Position numbers and translations under genes: made by a program. The notes below the pieces were generated by a model. The model was given only the letters and a program-made list of their open reading frames with translations. It had not been told where the DNA came from and did no database searches. DNA of 64,000 bases, taken from the NCBI RefSeq assembly GCF_000962805.1, contig NZ_JZTW01000004.1, positions 62,001-126,000 of the forward strand. The letters are read 5' to 3'. The stretch comes from Pseudarthrobacter chlorophenolicus. GTDB lineage: Bacteria; Actinomycetota; Actinomycetes; Actinomycetales; Micrococcaceae. Shown here piece after piece: positions 1,846-10,598 of this stretch (positions are counted from its first letter, which is position 1; each line of letters begins with the position of its first letter).

Positions 1846-2232
1846 TCACGGTGTGCCGCAGTACCGGCCGACGGCGGCACGGCGAAGGTCCTCGGCCCAG
1901 TCCGAAAGGCGCTGCGCGGCCCGGACATAGTGGAACAGTTCCAGCGGCGTCAGGGCATCCAGGTCCGTTTCAGCCAGGCGGCGGGCAAGCTCGGCGCCTT
2001 CGGGCTGGGCCGCGAGGCTGACGCCCTCCCGCTCCCACTGGACATCCTCCGCAGGCCTTCCGGCCACGAGCTGGCGGAAGAGGAAGTCCACTACTCCTGG
2101 GCTCATGGCCTTCAGTGGCCCCGTTCCCGGTTCGGAGCCTGCTGGCCTGCCGCCGGCGGACCGATCAAGGGACTCGTGGCGGCCCGGTCCGTAGGCGGGA
2201 ATCTCCGGCGTTGGCGTCTGCATGCGCTCCAT
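1846..2232 (-). pseudogene. Truncated DUF222 (13E12-family) remnant
   Basis: The frame from ATG 2232 (MERMQTPTPE) gives 128 aa. Its last part, DALTPLELFHYVRAAQRLSDWAEDL, matches the alpha-helical start of DUF222 domains of HNH-type 13E12 proteins (compare the full copy at 10997-12949). It then stops at GRYCGTP, before the rest of DUF222 and the HNH module. I read it as the preserved 5' end of a gene whose 3' part was lost, although a short functional protein is possible. Starts at 2232, at 2223 (ATG) or a TTG at 2259 inside the palindrome are all conceivable. An SOS-box-like palindrome lies 2 bp upstream of 2232. The 3' end abuts the dapA promoter. Confidence 0.5.
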
Positions 2233-2233
2233 C

Positions 2234-2257
2234 GTATTCGAACATATATTCGAATAC
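2234..2257. promoter_or_regulatory. SOS-box-like palindrome (LexA operator candidate)
   Basis: A perfect inverted repeat: arm GTATTCGAA, spacer CATATA, arm TTCGAATAC. Its core TCGAAC-ATAT-ATTCGA differs by one base from the actinobacterial LexA consensus TCGAAC-N4-GTTCGA. It lies directly before the DUF222 remnant (minus strand) and about 100 bp before the membrane protein at 2357 (plus strand). Some mycobacterial 13E12 genes are known to be LexA-controlled, which supports the reading. Confidence 0.6.
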
Positions 2258-2356
2258 AAGAGTTTCCGCGGCGTCCGCGCGGCTTACCAGCTGCTCACAC
2301 GAGGAGTCCCCCGGCGTGACAGCGGGCTCAGTCGCTCCTATGAGACGATTCGGTTC

Positions 2357-3592
2357 ATGACTTCCCGCAACCCGGCCAGGGCATCCCGGAAAACGGCAGC
2401 CGGCCAGGTACCGGGACGGCTCTACGGGATCGACGCCGCGCGCGGGATTGCCCTGCTGGGCATGATGGCCACCCATCTGCTCCCCACCTTTGAATCCAAC
2501 GCCGGCCTCACCCCCACCTGGATTGGGCTGGCATTTTCCGGGCGGGCGGCGGCACTGTTCGCCGTGCTGGCCGGCGTCGGGCTGGCCCTGTCCACCGGTA
2601 AAAACAGGCCGCTGGCGGCCGGTGAACTCTCGGCCGCGCGGCGCGGAGTAGCCCTCCGCGCGCTGGTGATCGCCGCCGTCGGGCTCAGCCTGGGTGGCCT
2701 CGAAGTCAACCTGGCCGTCATCCTGGTCCACTACGCAGTCCTGTTCCTGTGCATCCTGCCGTTCCTGGGCATGGGCCTGAAACGGCTCTGCGCCTGGGCT
2801 GCCGGCTGGATCGTCGGTTCCCCAATTCTGGCCTACCTCCTGCGCCCGTGGCTGCTGGCCGCGGAGCCACCCCTGCAGCTTGGCCACAATCCCGGCTGGG
2901 AGGACCTGGCAACGCCCGCACGGCTGGTCGCCGATGTATTCCTCACCGGCTACTACCCGGTGTTCCAGTGGATGTCGTACCTGCTGGTGGGGCTCGCAAT
3001 CGGCCGGCTGGTGCTCAGCAAGGCCCTGGTTCCGGTGGCGCTGCTGTCCGGCGGGACCGTTATTGCGGTCGCCGCGAAGGTGCTTGGCGTGACGGCTATG
3101 GAGGACTGGGGCGGGCGTGCCGCTCTGGAGAAGGTCCTCAACGCGCCGGGGTATCCGCTGGACAGCGTCCTGCAGGTGAACCTGACCGGAATCAGGCAGG
3201 AAGGGTCGTGGTGGTGGCTGGCGTCCGCAGCCCCGCATTCCGGTACCACCCTGGACCTGGTGCACACCTCGGCAGTGGCGGCGGCGGTCATCGGAGCCTG
3301 CTTGCTCCTTGGCCGGTTGGCGGAGTGGATAGACCTGGACCTGCTGCTCCCCCTGCGCGGCGCCGGTGCCATGACATTGACCCTGTACACGGCCCATGTC
3401 TGGGTGGTGTCAGGGTTCTACCTCAAGCCGCTGCCCGCCGGCTGGACCGAGGACGGCATGTACTTTGCGCAGGCAGCCTCAGCGGTGGTGGTGGGCATGG
3501 CCTTCGTGCTGCTGAAGTGGCGGGGTCCGCTGGAATGGGTGGGCCATGCGGCCAGCCAGCTGGGCCGCGGCCAGCTCAAAATCCCGCGGTAG
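2357..3592 (+). CDS. Multi-helix membrane protein, heparan-alpha-glucosaminide N-acetyltransferase/DUF418-like
   Basis: A 411-aa integral membrane protein with about ten hydrophobic segments. The N-terminus RLYGIDAARGIALLGMM followed by FSGRAAALFAVLAGVGLAL is the hallmark of the DUF1624 (HGSNAT-like) and DUF418 acyltransferase-like families: R-(I/L)-x-x-(I/L)-D-x-x-R-G-(I/L)-A. The C-terminal part (GAMTLTLYTAHVW) resembles DUF418. The substrate is unknown, and transfer of an acyl group to an envelope component is only a family-level guess. I chose ATG 2357 because upstream residues are not conserved in style and the frame would otherwise run through the palindrome. It converges with the next minus-strand gene after 20 bp. 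Confidence 0.75.
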   Translation: MTSRNPARASRKTAAGQVPGRLYGIDAARGIALLGMMATHLLPTFESNAGLTPTWIGLAFSGRAAALFAVLAGVGLALSTGKNRPLAAGELSAARRGVALRALVIAAVGLSLGGLEVNLAVILVHYAVLFLCILPFLGMGLKRLCAWAAGWIVGSPILAYLLRPWLLAAEPPLQLGHNPGWEDLATPARLVADVFLTGYYPVFQWMSYLLVGLAIGRLVLSKALVPVALLSGGTVIAVAAKVLGVTAMEDWGGRAALEKVLNAPGYPLDSVLQVNLTGIRQEGSWWWLASAAPHSGTTLDLVHTSAVAAAVIGACLLLGRLAEWIDLDLLLPLRGAGAMTLTLYTAHVWVVSGFYLKPLPAGWTEDGMYFAQAASAVVVGMAFVLLKWRGPLEWVGHAASQLGRGQLKIPR

Positions 3593-4095: not shown

Positions 4096-4866
4096 CTAGA
4101 AACCCAGGTCCAAATAGCCGTCCAGCCCCACGGTAAGACCGGGGTGGGCGGCCACGTTGCGGACTCCCAGCAGGACGCCCGGCATGAAGGACGCGCGGTC
4201 GAACGAGTCGTGGCGCAGCGTCAGCTGCTCACCGGCGCTGCCGAGGAGGACTTCCTGGTGGGCCACCAGGCCGCGGAGCCTGACGCTGTGGACGCGGACG
4301 CCGTCAACGTCGCAGCCGCGGGCGCCAGCCAGTTCACTGGTGGTGGCGTCCGGGCTTGCCGGCACGCCGGCGGCCTCGCGCTCTGCTGCGATGAGCTGGG
4401 CGGTGCGGACGGCCGTTCCGGAAGGGGCGTCCACCTTGTCGGGGTGGTGCAGCTCAATGATCTCCACCGACTCGAAGTACTTGGAAGCCTTGGCGGCGAA
4501 GGCCGAAGCCAGTACCGATCCCACGGCGAAGTTGGGTGCGATCAGCACGCCGGTGGCCGGGTGTGCCGCCAGCAGGGCTTCGAGCGCGGACAGGCGTCCG
4601 GCATCCCAGCCGGTGGTCCCCACAACGGCGTGGATGTTGTTTTCGACGGCGAAGCGGACGTTGGCTTCGGTGCTTTCGGGAACTGTCAGGTCCACAAGGT
4701 ACTGCGCTCCGGCGGCAGTCACCTGGTCCAGGGAGTCGCCCCGTCCCAGCGCCGCGACGAGCTCCATATCGGGTGCGGCTTCAACGGCTTTGACGGCTTC
4801 GGCGCCCATGCGCCCGTTGGCGCCCAGGATGGCGACGCGCTTGGCTTCGGAGTGTTGTTCGGTCAT
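4096..4866 (-). CDS. dapB: 4-hydroxy-tetrahydrodipicolinate reductase DapB
   Basis: NAD(P)H-dependent second step after DapA in diaminopimelate/lysine synthesis. 256 aa, near the usual length. The N-terminal Rossmann motif AILGANGRMGAEAV binds the nucleotide. The family signature around the catalytic His/Lys is ELHHPDKVDAPSGTA, and VGTTGW and APNFAVGS are present too. The start is ATG with a TAGGCT -10 box 7 nt upstream and no evident ribosome site, so it is a leaderless candidate. Confidence 0.97.
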   Translation of the reverse strand: MTEQHSEAKRVAILGANGRMGAEAVKAVEAAPDMELVAALGRGDSLDQVTAAGAQYLVDLTVPESTEANVRFAVENNIHAVVGTTGWDAGRLSALEALLAAHPATGVLIAPNFAVGSVLASAFAAKASKYFESVEIIELHHPDKVDAPSGTAVRTAQLIAAEREAAGVPASPDATTSELAGARGCDVDGVRVHSVRLRGLVAHQEVLLGSAGEQLTLRHDSFDRASFMPGVLLGVRNVAAHPGLTVGLDGYLDLGF

Positions 4867-4949: not shown

Positions 4950-5420
4950 TCAGCCGCCGGCGCCCACCCATTCAACAGTGCCGTCCGAGAAGAACTGTTC
5001 CTTCCAGATGGGCACCTGCTCCTTGATCCGGTCCACCAGCTCGGAACACACGGCGAAGGCTTGTCCCCGGTGGGCAGCGGACACGGCGCATACCAGCGCG
5101 GGGTCGCCGATCTGCAGCATGCCGATCCGGTGGGCCGCCCAGATGCGGACCGGCTTTTCGCTGTCCTCCCCCGCGCCTCCGCCGGCGTTTTGTTCGGCAA
5201 CCAGCCGGGCGACGACGTCGGCCATCACCTGGTGCGCCGTGGGGTGCGCGCTGTAGCTGAGGCGGTCAACTGCCTTGCCGCCGTCGTGGTTGCGCACCAC
5301 GCCGCTGAAGCTGACCACCGCGCCAGCGGTGTCCCCTTCCACGGCCGCAATGGCCTGGTCAACGGAGATCGGCTCGGCGCTGAGGACCGCCGATACCACC
5401 TCGAATGCTTCAGTGCCCAT
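4950..5420 (-). CDS. moaE: Molybdopterin synthase catalytic subunit MoaE
   Basis: Large subunit that, with thiocarboxylated MoaD, inserts the two dithiolene sulfurs into cyclic pyranopterin monophosphate. 156 aa, normal. Conserved features are GAVVSFSGVVRNHDGGKAV, the HRIGMLQIGD segment, AAHRGQAF and the catalytic-lysine region VPIWKEQFFSDG. It overlaps the end of the mog-like gene by 11 bp and is last in the moeA-moaC-mog-moaE series. Its partner moaD is encoded 5 kb away, after the divergently transcribed moaA. Confidence 0.96.
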   Translation of the reverse strand: MGTEAFEVVSAVLSAEPISVDQAIAAVEGDTAGAVVSFSGVVRNHDGGKAVDRLSYSAHPTAHQVMADVVARLVAEQNAGGGAGEDSEKPVRIWAAHRIGMLQIGDPALVCAVSAAHRGQAFAVCSELVDRIKEQVPIWKEQFFSDGTVEWVGAGG

Positions 5421-5970
5421 GGTTGCCTTCCAACTGGTCGCAGAGGTGCCCGATCAGCGGGTCAAGGACAGTGAGTCCGTCCATGACGCCCTTCGGTGAG
5501 CCGGGCAGATTAACAATGAAGGACTTCCCTGCCGCACCCGCGTAGCCGCGGCTGAGGGCCGCAAGCGGCGTTTTGGCGGCCCCGGCACGCCGGATCGCCT
5601 CCATGATGCCGGGGATTTCGCGGTCCAGCAGGGGCCGGGTGACGTCGGGGGTCCGGTCGTCAGGGTTCAGGCCGGTGCCGCCGCTGGTGATCACGACGGC
5701 GGGGTGCTGGGTCAGCAGGGCCCGGATCGCCGCGCCGACGGGCTCGCCGTCGGGGACCACCATCGCCGGGAAGACCTCAAAGCCGTGCTCGGTGAGCCAG
5801 TCCGTGATCACCGGACCGGTTTCGTCGTCGTAGATGCCTGCTGCTGCGCGCGTGGAGGCGATCACTACTCCGGCCTTCCGGCCCAGGACGTCGCCGTGCC
5901 GGTGCGGCTCGGCGGCGTGGGAAGGGACTCCGTGGGAATGGGTGTCGCCAGAGATGTCGTGGTGTGTCAC
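5410..5970 (-). CDS. mog: MogA/MoaB-family molybdopterin adenylyltransferase with His-rich N-terminus
   Basis: Predicted to adenylylate molybdopterin before MoeA inserts molybdate. 186 aa. The MoCF-binding fold shows [19 protein letters not shown] and the end motif [13 protein letters not shown]. Unusual: the first 25 residues contain seven histidines (positions 3, 4, 11, 13, 18, 23, 25) before the conserved domain starts at about residue 30. The GTG start overlaps the moaC stop as GTGA, which supports translational coupling and hence real translation of the His-rich leader. Choosing between the MogA and MoaB names would need alignment. Confidence 0.92.
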
Positions 5971-6461
5971 AGGGTCCAGTCCCCGCTCTTGCCGCCGCTC
6001 TTGGCCAGCACCTTGATGTCGGTCAGCACGGCGTGCTTGTCCACGGCCTTGATCATGTCGTAGACGCTCAGCGCGGCCACGGACGCCGCGGTGAGGGCCT
6101 CCATTTCGACGCCGGTGACGCCACGGGTCTTGACGGTGGCCACCACCTCAACGGACTCTGCGTCGAGCCCAAAGTCAACGGTGACCTTGGACAGAGGCAA
6201 GGGGTGGCACAGCGGAATCAGCTCGGGCGTTTTCTTGGCGGCCATGATGCCTGCCACCCGGGCAACGGCCAGCGCGTCGCCTTTGGGCAGGCCGCCGGAA
6301 CCGAGCAGGCCCATCACCTCCGCCGTGGTGCGGACCGTGGCTGTTGCTGTGGCTTCACGGGTGGTTTCGGCCTTGGTGGACACGTCCACCATCTGTGCGC
6401 TGCCGTCCCGGCGCAGGTGCGTCAGGGCGGCGGGGGTCTGTTCTGCATTCACAGCATCCAT
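5967..6461 (-). CDS. moaC: Cyclic pyranopterin monophosphate synthase MoaC
   Basis: Works after MoaA to close the pyranopterin ring in the first stage of Moco synthesis. 164 aa, normal. Conserved [18 protein letters not shown] and [26 protein letters not shown] segments are complete, and [16 protein letters not shown] matches the N-terminal signature. It overlaps moeA by 13 bp upstream and mog by 4 bp downstream, so these genes form a tight operon. Confidence 0.97.
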
Positions 6462-7696
6462 ACTTCCACCTCGTCCCCGGCCGCGAGTTCCGTTACGCCG
6501 GCGGGGACGTGGACCAGTGCGTTGGAACCGGCCAGCGCACGGACCAGGTGGGAGCTCTCGCCGCCTTCCAGCCGTACGGTCCCGTCGGGCTGCAGGTTGC
6601 CGCGCCGCACCTGGTGTTTGTGCTCCGGGGACGTCAGCGGGTGGCTGAGCCTGGCGCGGACAGGCAGGCGGAGGGCCGGAGCCCCCAGGACTGCTGCGAG
6701 GGCGGGCCGGAGGAACATTTCGAAGGACACCAGGCAGCTGACGGGGTTCCCCGGGAATCCCAGGAAGGGGACGCCGTCGAACATGCCGATCCCCTGCGGC
6801 CCGCCCGGTTGCATGGCCACGTGCAGGAATTCCACCGGCTGGCCTTCCATGGCCTGCCGGACAACCTCGTAGGCACCCTTGCTGACGCCTCCGGTGGTCA
6901 CAATGAGATCGGTATCCGCGCGGTGGCTCCGGAGCAGCTGCTGCAGTTCCGCGGGATCGTCGGTGGAGATACCGGCCCGCCGTACATCCAGGCCTGCCTG
7001 CGCCATGGCGGCTTCGAGGAGGGTGCCGTTTGCGTCGTAGATCTTGCCGGCGGGCAGGTCCTGGCCCGGTTCAACCACTTCGTCGCCGGTGGTGACCAGC
7101 AGGATCCGGACGGCGCGGTAGACCTCCACATCCGGGATCCCCAGGGCGGCAAGCAGCCCCAACTGGGCTGGGCCAAGGCAGGTGCCGCCGGCCAGGGCGC
7201 GCTCCCCCGCGGCGATGTCGCTGCCCACCGGTCGGACGTAGGTCCCCGCCGCCGTTGCAGGCAGCGTGACCCGCGCATTGGTGCCCGGAGCGGGAAAGCT
7301 GTCCGGCACCGCGCGTTCAATGGGTACGACGGCGTCAGCACCGTCCGGGAGCATGGCGCCTGTCATGATGGGCGCCGCGGTCCCGCGGGCCAGCAGGGGC
7401 GGACGCATCCCGGCGGGAACCGGTGCCGCGACGGCGAACTCCGTGACGTCGTCGTGCATGTCTGCGGAATTTACCGCGTACCCGTCCATCTGGGAGTTGG
7501 CGAAGGGCGGCAGGCTGACGGGTGCCGGGAATCCGTGCACCAGCGCCCTGCCGAGGCAACCGGCAAGTGGGATGGTTTCGGTGCGGGATACCGACCGCAA
7601 AGGTGCCAGCAGGTCCGCAACGGCGGCGACATGGCGGGCAACGGAGCGGGCCTGGTGGGGCGTGCCCGCAGGGGCGTGGCGGTGCGGGCTGGTCAT
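6449..7696 (-). CDS. moeA: Molybdopterin molybdotransferase MoeA
   Basis: Inserts molybdate into adenylylated molybdopterin. 415 aa, normal. Visible are [15 protein letters not shown]-type sequence ([15 protein letters not shown]), GAVVP-like [35 protein letters not shown] and [10 protein letters not shown]. The C-terminal domain IV ends in [12 protein letters not shown]. It starts 23 bp after the membrane molybdoenzyme and overlaps moaC. Confidence 0.96.
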
Positions 7697-7719
7697 GGAT
7701 GCGCCTTCAGTGTGGGCCG

Positions 7720-9336
7720 TCAGGATTTCACGTCCACTCTAACCGTGTGGAATCCGGTGGCGCCGTCCGGGACCACAGGACGGGACGCCTCGTCCTGGAC
7801 GGTGCCCTTAAGGTCGGTGGCCCGCACCTGGATCTCGTACTGCCCGGGGGTCAGGTCCAGGCTGAGCTTCCACTGGTACCAGGTGTCCGTGGAGATCCCG
7901 GGTAACAGCTCCGCCGGCTGCCAGGAACCCCGGTTGACCCTGAGTTCTACGGCGCTGATGCCGGTGTGCTGGGCCCAGGCAACGCCGCCAAACGTGACCG
8001 CTCCGGAGTTGACGGGCCTGCCGCTGCGGGGGACGTCGATGCGGGACTGCAGCTTGATGGGGCCATGGTCGGACCAGCCCCTGGTGGTCCAGTAGGCGGT
8101 GTCCGCCGCGTAGGTGGTGACTTTCAGCTCAGTAACCCATTTCGTGGCGGAAACGTAGCCGTACAGGCCCGGCACCACCAGCCGGGCGGGGAATCCGTGT
8201 TCGAGCGGCAGCGGCCCGCCGTTCATTCCCACGGCCAGCAGGGCGTCCCGGTTGTCCGTGAGCACTTCCAGCGGCGTGCCGGCAGTCCATCCGTCGGCGC
8301 TCCGGGACAGCACCATGTCCGCGCCCCGGACCGGCCCGGCCAGCGCCAGGAGTTCGCGGACCGGCCAGCCGAGCCACCGCGCGTTGCCGATCAGGTCCCC
8401 GCCTACCGGGTTGGAAACGCAGGCGATGGTGATGTGGCGTTCGGTCAGCGGCTTGGCAAGGAGTTCGGCGAGGGTCAGTTCCACCTCGCGCTGCACCATG
8501 CCGGAGACCTTGAGGACCCAGGTATCGGGGTCGACGGCGGGTACCACCAGCGCGGTGTCGATGCGGTAGAAGTCGTTGACGGGGGTGACGAACGGCGGCA
8601 TGCCCTCCACTCCTGCCTCTGCCCCGGCCGGGATGGGCGGCGCCGGATTCGCCGGCGGGGGTATCGCCACGCGGGCCCGTGCATCGTTAATCTTTATGAC
8701 GGTCCCGCGCCAGGTTCCCGCCAGGACGCCGCCAAGCACGGCGACGGCGCCACCGGCAGCAAGGGTCCGCAGGAAAGTACGGCGGGCAGCGCCCTGGCCG
8801 TCTTCCGGCGCCCCTTCCCAGGCCTTCAGCTTCCCCATCACCAGGCGGAGGATCAGGGCAGCCGCGGCCGAAGCAGCCAACGGAAGGGCCAGGGCCACGG
8901 GCGTGACCTGCGCGCGGCCCGCCACGGCGGCCACTCCGGCAAGGCCGAACAGGGCAATCACGGCCAGCCCCGCAAAGCGCCGGCGCCGTTCCACCACCCC
9001 TGCCAAGGCCGCGAGGACAACGATGACCAAGGCCATGCTGACCAGGAGGGCCGCCTTGTCCGCCGTGCCAAAGAGCGAGACGGCCCAGTCCTTGACGGCC
9101 GGCGGCACGGCATCAATGACCGCTCCGCCCACCGCCGTCAGCGGCGACACCGACGGGCTCCACACGCCGGCCAGCAACTCTCCGAGGACCACCCCTCCGG
9201 CCACGGACACCACGCCGGCGGCCGCAGCGTGCCCGCCCAGGGGGTGCCGTTCAGCCTGTTCACCTGCGCTGGGTTTGGCTGAACCGCTGTGGCGGGTGCC
9301 GTCGTCGTGCGTGGCCTGCGGCCGGGCGCTGTTCAC
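7720..9336 (-). CDS. Membrane-bound sulfite-oxidase-family molybdopterin oxidoreductase with internal Tat motif
   Basis: 538 aa. The first 210 residues hold five hydrophobic helices (about 34-57, 94-115, 121-139, 145-165 and 192-208). A twin-arginine motif RRTFLR at 185-190 lies directly before the fifth. The C-terminal part is the SUOX/YedY-type Moco domain: HITIACVSNPVGGD carries the presumed Mo-ligand Cys306, followed by WLGWPVRELL and a Mo-co dimerisation domain (YQWKLSLDLTPGQYEIQVRATD). The catalytic domain should lie outside the membrane. The pattern matches the class of proteins in which Sec inserts early helices and Tat moves the folded Moco domain. The substrate is unknown; no haem or cytochrome partner gene is adjacent. 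It heads the moeA-moaC-mog-moaE series. Confidence 0.9.
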   Translation of the reverse strand: MNSARPQATHDDGTRHSGSAKPSAGEQAERHPLGGHAAAAGVVSVAGGVVLGELLAGVWSPSVSPLTAVGGAVIDAVPPAVKDWAVSLFGTADKAALLVSMALVIVVLAALAGVVERRRRFAGLAVIALFGLAGVAAVAGRAQVTPVALALPLAASAAAALILRLVMGKLKAWEGAPEDGQGAARRTFLRTLAAGGAVAVLGGVLAGTWRGTVIKINDARARVAIPPPANPAPPIPAGAEAGVEGMPPFVTPVNDFYRIDTALVVPAVDPDTWVLKVSGMVQREVELTLAELLAKPLTERHITIACVSNPVGGDLIGNARWLGWPVRELLALAGPVRGADMVLSRSADGWTAGTPLEVLTDNRDALLAVGMNGGPLPLEHGFPARLVVPGLYGYVSATKWVTELKVTTYAADTAYWTTRGWSDHGPIKLQSRIDVPRSGRPVNSGAVTFGGVAWAQHTGISAVELRVNRGSWQPAELLPGISTDTWYQWKLSLDLTPGQYEIQVRATDLKGTVQDEASRPVVPDGATGFHTVRVDVKS

Positions 9337-9443
9337 CCTTCAAGCATAGGTTCGGCGCGCCCTTTCCGGCGGCGGCCCACCGCGGATTCCTCCCTGCCCC
9401 GGGCTGCAGCCGTCACGGGTGTGATGTGGAGCCCATCGTGGCG

Positions 9444-9449
9444 TAGCCT
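9444..9449 (+). promoter_or_regulatory. -10 box for moaA
   Basis: TAGCCT ends 6 nt before the moaA ATG, with no Shine-Dalgarno sequence between. Transcription would begin at or next to the start codon. This 119-bp gap is the divergent promoter region between moaA and the molybdoenzyme gene. Confidence 0.45.
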
Positions 9450-9455
9450 GAATTT

Positions 9456-10598
9456 ATGAGTGTCCAGCTAGGCATGCCCCAGCCCCGCGAAGAAGCGGGC
9501 CCGGCGCAACCGTCCGTCCCGGCCGCCCGTCCGGCTGACGCGCCTGCGGGCCTGGTGGACCGGTACGGGCGCCGCGCCAGCGACATGCGGCTGTCCCTGA
9601 CCGATAAATGCAACCTCCGCTGCACCTACTGCATGCCCGCCGAAGGCCTGGAATGGCTGGCAAAGCAGGCCGTCATGACGGCCGAGGAGATTGTCAGGAT
9701 CGTCCGGATCGGGGTGGAGCGGCTCGGCGTTCGCGAGCTGCGGCTCACCGGCGGCGAACCCCTGGTCCGGCACGACCTGGTGGACATCATTTCAGCGCTG
9801 CGCAGCAACCATCCGGACCTGCCCATCTCGATGACCACCAACGCCGTGGGGCTGGCGAAGAAGGCCGCCCCGCTCAAGGCCGCAGGGCTGACACGGATCA
9901 ATGTCTCCCTTGATTCCCTGCACGAAGAGACGTTTACGAAGCTCACCCGCCGGCCGTTCCTGGACCAGGTACTCGCGGGCGTGGACGCGGCCTGGGCTGC
10001 GGGGCTGGGACCGGTCAAGCTGAATGCTGTCCTGATGCGCGGAATCAACGACGCCGAGTCCCCTGCCCTGCTGGGGTGGGCTTTGGACCGGGGTTATGAA
10101 CTTCGATTCATTGAACAGATGCCGCTCGACGCCGATCACGGGTGGACGCGCCGCAACATGATCACGGCCGCCGAAATCCGCGAAATCCTGTCCGCCGAGT
10201 ACGTCCTGAGCGCCGATCCCCGGGAACGCGACGGGGCGCCCGCCGAGAGGTTTGAAGTACGACGCCGGGTGGCCGGGCTGGATGCCGGCGGCGACCCGTC
10301 TGCGCACGGCCCCGTCCTGGGAACGGTGGGAATCATCGCCTCCGTCACCGAACCGTTCTGCTCGGATTGCCGCCGGACCCGGATCACTGCCGAGGGCAAG
10401 ATCATGAGCTGCCTCTTCTCACGGGAAGAGTACGATCTCCTGGGCCTGCTGCGCTCCGGCGCCGACGACGAAGCCCTGGCGCGCCGGTGGCAGGACGCGA
10501 TGTGGATTAAGCCAAAAGCCCACGGAATGGACCACGTGGGACTCGACGCTCCGGACTTCGTCCAGCCGGACCGCAGCATGAGCGCCATCGGGGGCTGA
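9456..10598 (+). CDS. moaA: GTP 3',8-cyclase MoaA
   Basis: Radical-SAM enzyme that starts Moco synthesis from GTP. 380 aa. The N-terminal cluster motif is CNLRCTYCMP, followed by the SAM-binding RLTGGEPLVR. The C-terminal cluster motif is CSDCRRTRITAEGKIMSCLF. The protein ends in the catalytically important Gly-Gly (SAIGG). It sits 119 bp from, and diverges from, the molybdoenzyme/moe/moa genes, and moaD follows after 5 bp. The start ATG has a -10 box at leaderless distance. Confidence 0.97.
   Translation: MSVQLGMPQPREEAGPAQPSVPAARPADAPAGLVDRYGRRASDMRLSLTDKCNLRCTYCMPAEGLEWLAKQAVMTAEEIVRIVRIGVERLGVRELRLTGGEPLVRHDLVDIISALRSNHPDLPISMTTNAVGLAKKAAPLKAAGLTRINVSLDSLHEETFTKLTRRPFLDQVLAGVDAAWAAGLGPVKLNAVLMRGINDAESPALLGWALDRGYELRFIEQMPLDADHGWTRRNMITAAEIREILSAEYVLSADPRERDGAPAERFEVRRRVAGLDAGGDPSAHGPVLGTVGIIASVTEPFCSDCRRTRITAEGKIMSCLFSREEYDLLGLLRSGADDEALARRWQDAMWIKPKAHGMDHVGLDAPDFVQPDRSMSAIGG

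Follow-up and report, generated by a model that had tools for sequence, protein, structure and literature searches.

The window analysed here, i.e., the whole 64,000-nucleotide stretch of DNA from Pseudarthrobacter chlorophenolicus, encodes a 538-residue molybdoenzyme with five predicted helices, which probably belongs to a widespread heme-free actinobacterial branch of molybdoenzymes that are targeted by both the Sec and the Tat pathway; this is the best reading of the data. The export design as such was known before. New is the widespread heme-free variant, the anchor and pocket of which are unlike those of the tested Streptomyces protein Sco3746. The coordinates of the gene, of the protein features and of the neighboring genes are compiled in Table 1.

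Table 1. Features of the molybdoenzyme gene and its surroundings, in window positions.
Feature	Position	Strand	Basis or remark
Whole molybdoenzyme gene	7720..9336	-	538 aa, GTG start at 9336, stop ending at 7720
Helix 1, residues 33-59	9160..9240	-	Model; holds Glu53
First outer loop, residues 60-94	9055..9159	-	Model, conservation; outer side predicted from topology
Helix 2, membrane part, residues 94-118	8983..9057	-	Hydropathy, model
RRRR positive cluster, residues 117-120	8977..8988	-	Sequence; predicted inner side
Helix 3, residues 122-139	8920..8973	-	Hydropathy, model
Helix 4, residues 146-175	8812..8901	-	Hydropathy, model
Twin-arginine motif RRTFLR, residues 185-190	8767..8784	-	Sequence, conservation
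Helix 5, hydrophobic core, residues 191-209	8710..8766	-	Hydropathy, model
Stretch behind helix 5 with four R/K, residues 208-224	8665..8715	-	Sequence
Moco-binding domain PF00174 (Oxidored_molyb), residues 264-413	8098..8547	-	Pfam, E 8.5e-43
Cys306, place of the Mo-ligating Cys	8419..8421	-	208/208 rows; aligned with SorA Cys
C-terminal Ig-like domain, residues 430-538	7723..8049	-	SorA alignment, model, structure comparison
moeA, 23 bp downstream of the molybdoenzyme gene	6449..7696	-	
moaC	5967..6461	-	
mogA/moaB-type gene (MoCF_biosynth domain)	5410..5970	-	
moaE	4950..5420	-	
moaA, divergent, 119 bp between both starts	9456..10598	+	

The start of the gene is backed by an alignment with 19 orthologues of the same genus, 18 of which have GTG or ATG at the respective column. 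A scan of positions 7400-9700 for promoters and terminators found none. An open frame of 583 codons on the opposite strand (6344-8095, +), which overlaps moeA and the end of the molybdoenzyme gene in antisense orientation and took the place of moeA in a simple gene call, is probably spurious.

Relatives were drawn from 59 related genomes, 246 genomes of the phylum and 80 named loci, the latter being the best 80 of at least 592 matched stretches. Matches were present in 51 of the 59 related genomes and, at an E-value of 0.001, in 159 of the 246 phylum genomes, a count that includes other PF00174 groups. Reading by hand gave 110 of the 246 phylum genomes (the window's own included) with a match of at least 167 bits, with the helix bundle checked in some of these. 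The genome of the window itself encodes a paralogue of 51% identity (L002), and two family copies per locus were observed at L101:6221-9518, L025:809-4021 and L030:904-9094, those of L101 and L025 being adjacent to each other. The literature searched, which lay mostly outside subscription journals, held nothing recognisably about the heme-free group; the supplementary hit list of PMC5449189 may contain it.

The five hydrophobic helices proposed in the initial annotation were borne out by a topology check, which combined Kyte-Doolittle hydropathy with an AlphaFold2 model. Hydropathy exhibits five main peaks, near residues 49, 106, 130, 158 and 197, for the molybdoenzyme as well as for the family mean. 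The model of the 538-residue protein, built from a 59-sequence alignment (mean pLDDT 88.2, pTM 0.82), contains long helices at residues 33-59, 79-118, 122-139, 146-175 and 181-208 with a beta-rich domain behind them, and a short extra helix (65-76) within the first outer loop. With the N-terminus inside, the RRRR cluster and the twin arginines would face the cytoplasm and the Moco domain the exterior. In the family alignment, Glu53 of helix 1 is E in 163 of 205 rows, and D75, P78, G90, D93 and K94 are conserved in the first outer loop. The helix bundle modelled alone reached a pLDDT of 92.5; a Foldseek search with this bundle-only model yielded no match at an E-value of 0.001 or better and VIA-align gave a best Z of 5.8, which does not imply a new fold.

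The twin-arginine motif RRTFLR lies, as had been noted, directly before the fifth helix, its first residue being exactly 185. R185 is R in 208 of 209 family rows and R186 in 206 of 209, and phenylalanine occupies position 188 in 181 of 207 rows. Considering the whole aligned stretch before helix 5, an RR motif is present in 208 of 212 rows; the four others are a protein of another group (L003), a fragment (L210), a row with RK (L186) and one with R before G (L208). The twin arginines before helix 5 are thus more than a product of chance. At least one R/K is found at residues 208-224 in 207 of 209 rows. The spacing between residue 164 and the twin arginines ranges from 5 to 74 across rows. One relative (L089) scores 16.5 on the NCBI Tat-signal model just before helix 5, with a cut-off of 16.7, and TatC is encoded in the Pseudarthrobacter chlorophenolicus genome. 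The order of parts, namely an even number of transmembrane domains (TMDs), RR, one further TMD and a cofactor domain, is that of proteins targeted by both Sec and Tat.

Moco proteins take up their cofactor in the cytoplasm. This argues against a different reading, in which the twin arginines are nothing but inner-side topology charges and either all five helices and the domain pass through Sec or the domain stays inside. Such a reading gains from helix 5 being no less hydrophobic than helix 1, but it does not fit with a pair of arginines (and a phenylalanine two positions on) being kept while other inner charges vary in kind, and according to PMC5449189 export of the Sco3746 precedent is lost when RR is changed to KK. 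It is therefore regarded as highly improbable. The hydrophobicity of the helices deserves some caution. The Sec-to-Tat handover has been put down to a low hydrophobicity of the last TMD together with positive charges behind it (PMC5449189). On a hydrophobicity scale without position terms, helix 5 has an unfavourable value but ranks as the least hydrophobic helix in just 51 of 203 rows; in the window protein itself, the value of helix 1 is worse than that of helix 5. In the table of PMC5449189, five of the six natural proteins have a favourable helix 1; as the scale used here lacks position terms, the two sets of values are not comparable. The weakly hydrophobic last helix, which is part of the published handover, does not stand out in the window protein.

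A route via Sec and then Tat appears very plausible for the window protein, being in line with its topology, with the position of the twin arginines and with a folded Moco domain that follows helix 5. As a precedent, the initial annotation had named the actinobacterial Rieske proteins. In the Rieske protein QcrA (Sco2149), the earlier helices are inserted by Sec and the last one depends on Tat (PMC5449189, PMC7317946). Unlike the window protein, it usually has three helices and carries an iron-sulfur domain and no Moco domain. The nearest precedent, which had gone unmentioned, is Sco3746. According to Tooke et al. (2017; PMC5449189), a search for exactly this arrangement led to Sco3746, which has five TMDs (backed by cysteine labelling), RR before TMD5 and a C-terminal Moco domain. 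Reporter fusions showed Tat-dependent export with membrane retention in the absence of Tat, and the exchange of RR to KK abolished export. As this work demonstrated the design for Sco3746, the Sec-then-Tat arrangement is not new and was already established for a molybdoenzyme.

The question arises whether the window protein is an ordinary member of the heme-Moco family of Sco3746, i.e., a fused MsrP/MsrQ-like protein. Both share the same order of parts, with four helices, RR, a fifth helix followed by positive charges, and a PF00174 domain. In Sco3746, however, histidines in TMDs 2, 3 and 4 are predicted to hold two b hemes (PMC5449189), whereas the window protein contains no histidine from residue 37 to 300, and none of the columns 36-211 of the family alignment has histidine in more than 12 of 212 rows. 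This lack of the reported helix histidines had been left out of the initial annotation.

For comparison, 20 low-scoring PF00174 loci from one genus, presumably Streptomyces, were sampled, a genus in which all 31 genomes searched gave PF00174 matches. At 19 of these 20 loci an ORF with histidines in helices 2, 3 and 4 was found, and at 18 of them helices, RR and Moco motif are in one frame; one locus (L259) shows neither pattern. In another one (L243) the helix part and the Moco part of a Sco3746-type protein lie in different frames, which would reflect either a sequencing error or a frameshift. When nine residues given in PMC5449189 were checked against the fetched loci, at most six of nine agreed. 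The loop sites used there for cysteine scanning were found in register, G84 being present in 19 of 19 ORFs, A137 in 9 of 19 and G171 in 17 of 19. As the helix histidines are present and the loop sites are in register, the fetched loci were taken as Sco3746 type, which is distinct from a direct match to the Sco3746 sequence. The loci L211-L260 of this presumed Streptomyces genus comprise several PF00174 groups, namely sulfite-oxidase-like, Sco3746-type and heme-free five-helix proteins and small forms.

The Moco domains of the window family and of the Sco3746 type match with a probability of 99.4% in a profile comparison that includes the L243 row. The helix bundles, compared with profiles containing the same row, match at just 0.84% over 26 columns, although a common fold could escape such a sequence method. 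Furthermore, the Cys motif is C-V-E-G-W-S in 19 of the 20 Sco3746-set rows (L259 falls outside the pattern) as opposed to C-V-S-N-x-V-G-G in the window protein, and the ORFs of the Sco3746 type stop soon after the Moco domain, while the window protein adds an Ig-like domain. Membership in the Sco3746 family was rejected on the helix histidines, the Cys motif and the C-terminal domain, with the bundle comparison pointing in the same direction.

The catalytic part was assigned in the initial annotation to the sulfite-oxidase family, an assignment that holds for the fold, while the Arg and Tyr of the sulfite pocket are without a counterpart. Oxidored_molyb (PF00174) is the sole Pfam match in the window protein. 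The model exhibits the full sulfite-oxidase fold, with Z values of 29.9-31.6 over 296-309 residues when compared to the enzymes from chicken, plant and Starkeya; YedY structures reach a Z of 17.9 over 200-202 residues, inside model residues 223-460 (VIA). C306, H380, R385, K399 and W400 are invariant (208 of 208 rows for each). In sulfite oxidases, the residues equivalent to H380 and R385 bind the phosphate group of the cofactor. SorA, SorT and chicken sulfite oxidase resemble the window protein throughout the catalytic fold, with the Ig-like domain at the C-terminus and the Mo-ligating Cys, but they have no such membrane anchor, and their pocket Arg, His and Tyr are not conserved in the window family. 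The soluble MsrP of the MsrP/MsrQ (YedY/YedZ) system likewise has a Moco domain of the same superfamily that acts outside the membrane. Unlike the window protein, it is separate from its heme-b membrane partner (PMC5449189). On the NCBIfam MsrP model, the window protein scores 46.2 vs a cut-off of 207.

The likeness to sulfite oxidases could also indicate a membrane-bound sulfite dehydrogenase, which would pass electrons to cytochrome c. Indeed, sulfite-oxidising enzymes are the closest matches in sequence as well as in fold, and R55 of SorA aligns with R258, which is R in 177 of 208 rows and therefore suggests that part of the sulfite pocket survives. (The SorA positions were taken from mutant chains among the matches, R55M and Y236F by title and the H57 mutant by sequence.) The rest of the pocket, however, does not fit with this idea. 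The Arg at Cys+5, which all 17 sulfite-oxidase-like rows used for comparison contain as part of C-A-G-N-x-R, is replaced by V/I/L in 208 of 208 rows of the window family, and in the SorA profile alignment the Arg-bearing stretch after the Cys appears as a deletion in the window protein. At the place of SorA H57 stands D260 (D in 208 of 208 rows), and the catalytic Y236 aligns with W421 (W in 191 and Y in 17 of 208 rows). Scores on the NCBIfam models all remain below the cut-offs (SorA 95.1 vs 600, SoxC 93.5 vs 420, SorT 79.9 vs 570). In addition, the genome encodes a separate PF00174 protein (L003) with C-A-G-N-G-R. The window protein is thus probably not a classical sulfite oxidase, and although R258 is mostly kept, its residues suggest that the natural substrate would be something other than free sulfite.

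In the tree, whose 20 rows of the Sco3746 set include L259, the window family joins the sulfite-oxidase-like rows and the Sco3746 type joins small Moco-domain proteins (97/84). The first of these placements speaks for a sulfite dehydrogenase, which in view of the altered pocket is nevertheless considered unlikely. An AU test did not reject a tree that holds both five-helix groups together (p 0.326), with long branches meeting. This result is compatible with an ordinary heme-Moco protein of the Sco3746 family, a reading that the differences in histidines, bundle, Cys motif and C-terminal domain leave quite improbable.

The heme-free molybdoenzyme is encoded next to genes for the biosynthesis of its putative cofactor. 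As the gap to moeA is merely 23 bp and the genes follow in order, the molybdoenzyme gene probably shares a transcript with moeA-moaC-mogA-moaE. Among the named loci, the best 80 of at least 592 matched stretches, 23 have at least two Moco genes at a distance of up to 6.5 kb; L053 is the one locus with a single Moco gene, and 56 have none nearby. The 23 Moco-linked loci include every one of the 16 whose identity is 55.5% or higher; more distant Moco-linked loci of this set of 80 stem from Leifsonia (L092, L102), Microbacterium oleivorans (L099) and Marisediminicola (L073). As the genome contains other Moco enzymes as well (four PF00384 matches and one MoCoBD_2 match), the Moco cluster is not dedicated to the window protein.

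Neither beside the window gene nor around these best 80 of at least 592 loci was a conserved neighbor found that resembles an electron partner. Fasciclin was tried as a partner and rejected, since fasciclin and rskA-like genes occur near five of the best 80 (of at least 592) loci and never together with Moco genes. At L089:5616-7790, and similarly at L075, L083, L101 and L116, genes for fasciclin, an ECF sigma factor and an RskA-type anti-sigma factor directly precede the relative; Pfam on L089 found fasciclin and RskA with the ECF sigma factor in between. At five loci of the Moco-linked group, namely L051 (5826-7893), L048, L049, L053 and L054, the gene is directly preceded by genes for a histidine kinase and a response regulator, both of which were found by Pfam on L051 and L053. 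It is possible that this pair regulates the operon. Elsewhere in the window, the gene at 2222-3592 (+) has a weak HGSNAT_cat match (heparan-alpha-glucosaminide acetyltransferase-like, E 2.5e-11), with dapB nearby at 4096-4866 (-).

The window protein is likely to be an extracytoplasmic molybdenum oxidoreductase with a heme-free five-helix anchor, which would be exported via Sec and then Tat and would transfer oxygen atoms on a substrate other than sulfite. Helices 1-4 would enter the membrane via Sec. At helix 5, where the sequence has twin arginines on the predicted inner side and positive charges behind, Sec would let go, as in Sco3746. Following the same precedent, Moco uptake and folding of the C-terminal domain would be cytoplasmic steps that precede its export by Tat, and helix 5 would stay behind as anchor. 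As residues that sulfite oxidases use for sulfite are missing, the likeliest reaction appears to be the transfer of an oxygen atom with a substrate other than free sulfite. Since the anchor offers no histidines for heme b, electrons would be exchanged with a separate carrier, for which a cytochrome c docking from outside or the quinone pool are candidates.

A more far-reaching and rather doubtful idea is that a Sec-inserted four-helix bundle and a Tat-exported Moco domain were joined more than once in actinobacteria, once as the heme-holding Sco3746 type and once as the heme-free branch with its full sulfite-oxidase fold and a third motif, C-V-S-N-x-V-G-G. In that case the conserved E53, D75, D93-K94 and R141 toward the outer face might form a new docking site for quinone or cytochrome, and the reaction might be new to the superfamily.

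The occurrence of the same export design without heme ligands separates this design from its presumed purpose in electron transfer, and the heme-free relative provides a further test case for the rules of the Sec-to-Tat handover. The group represents a common kind of actinobacterial molybdoenzyme, with a pocket unlike that of sulfite oxidase and also unlike that of the Sco3746 type; both the substrate and the electron partner of this heme-free group can now be searched for directly.
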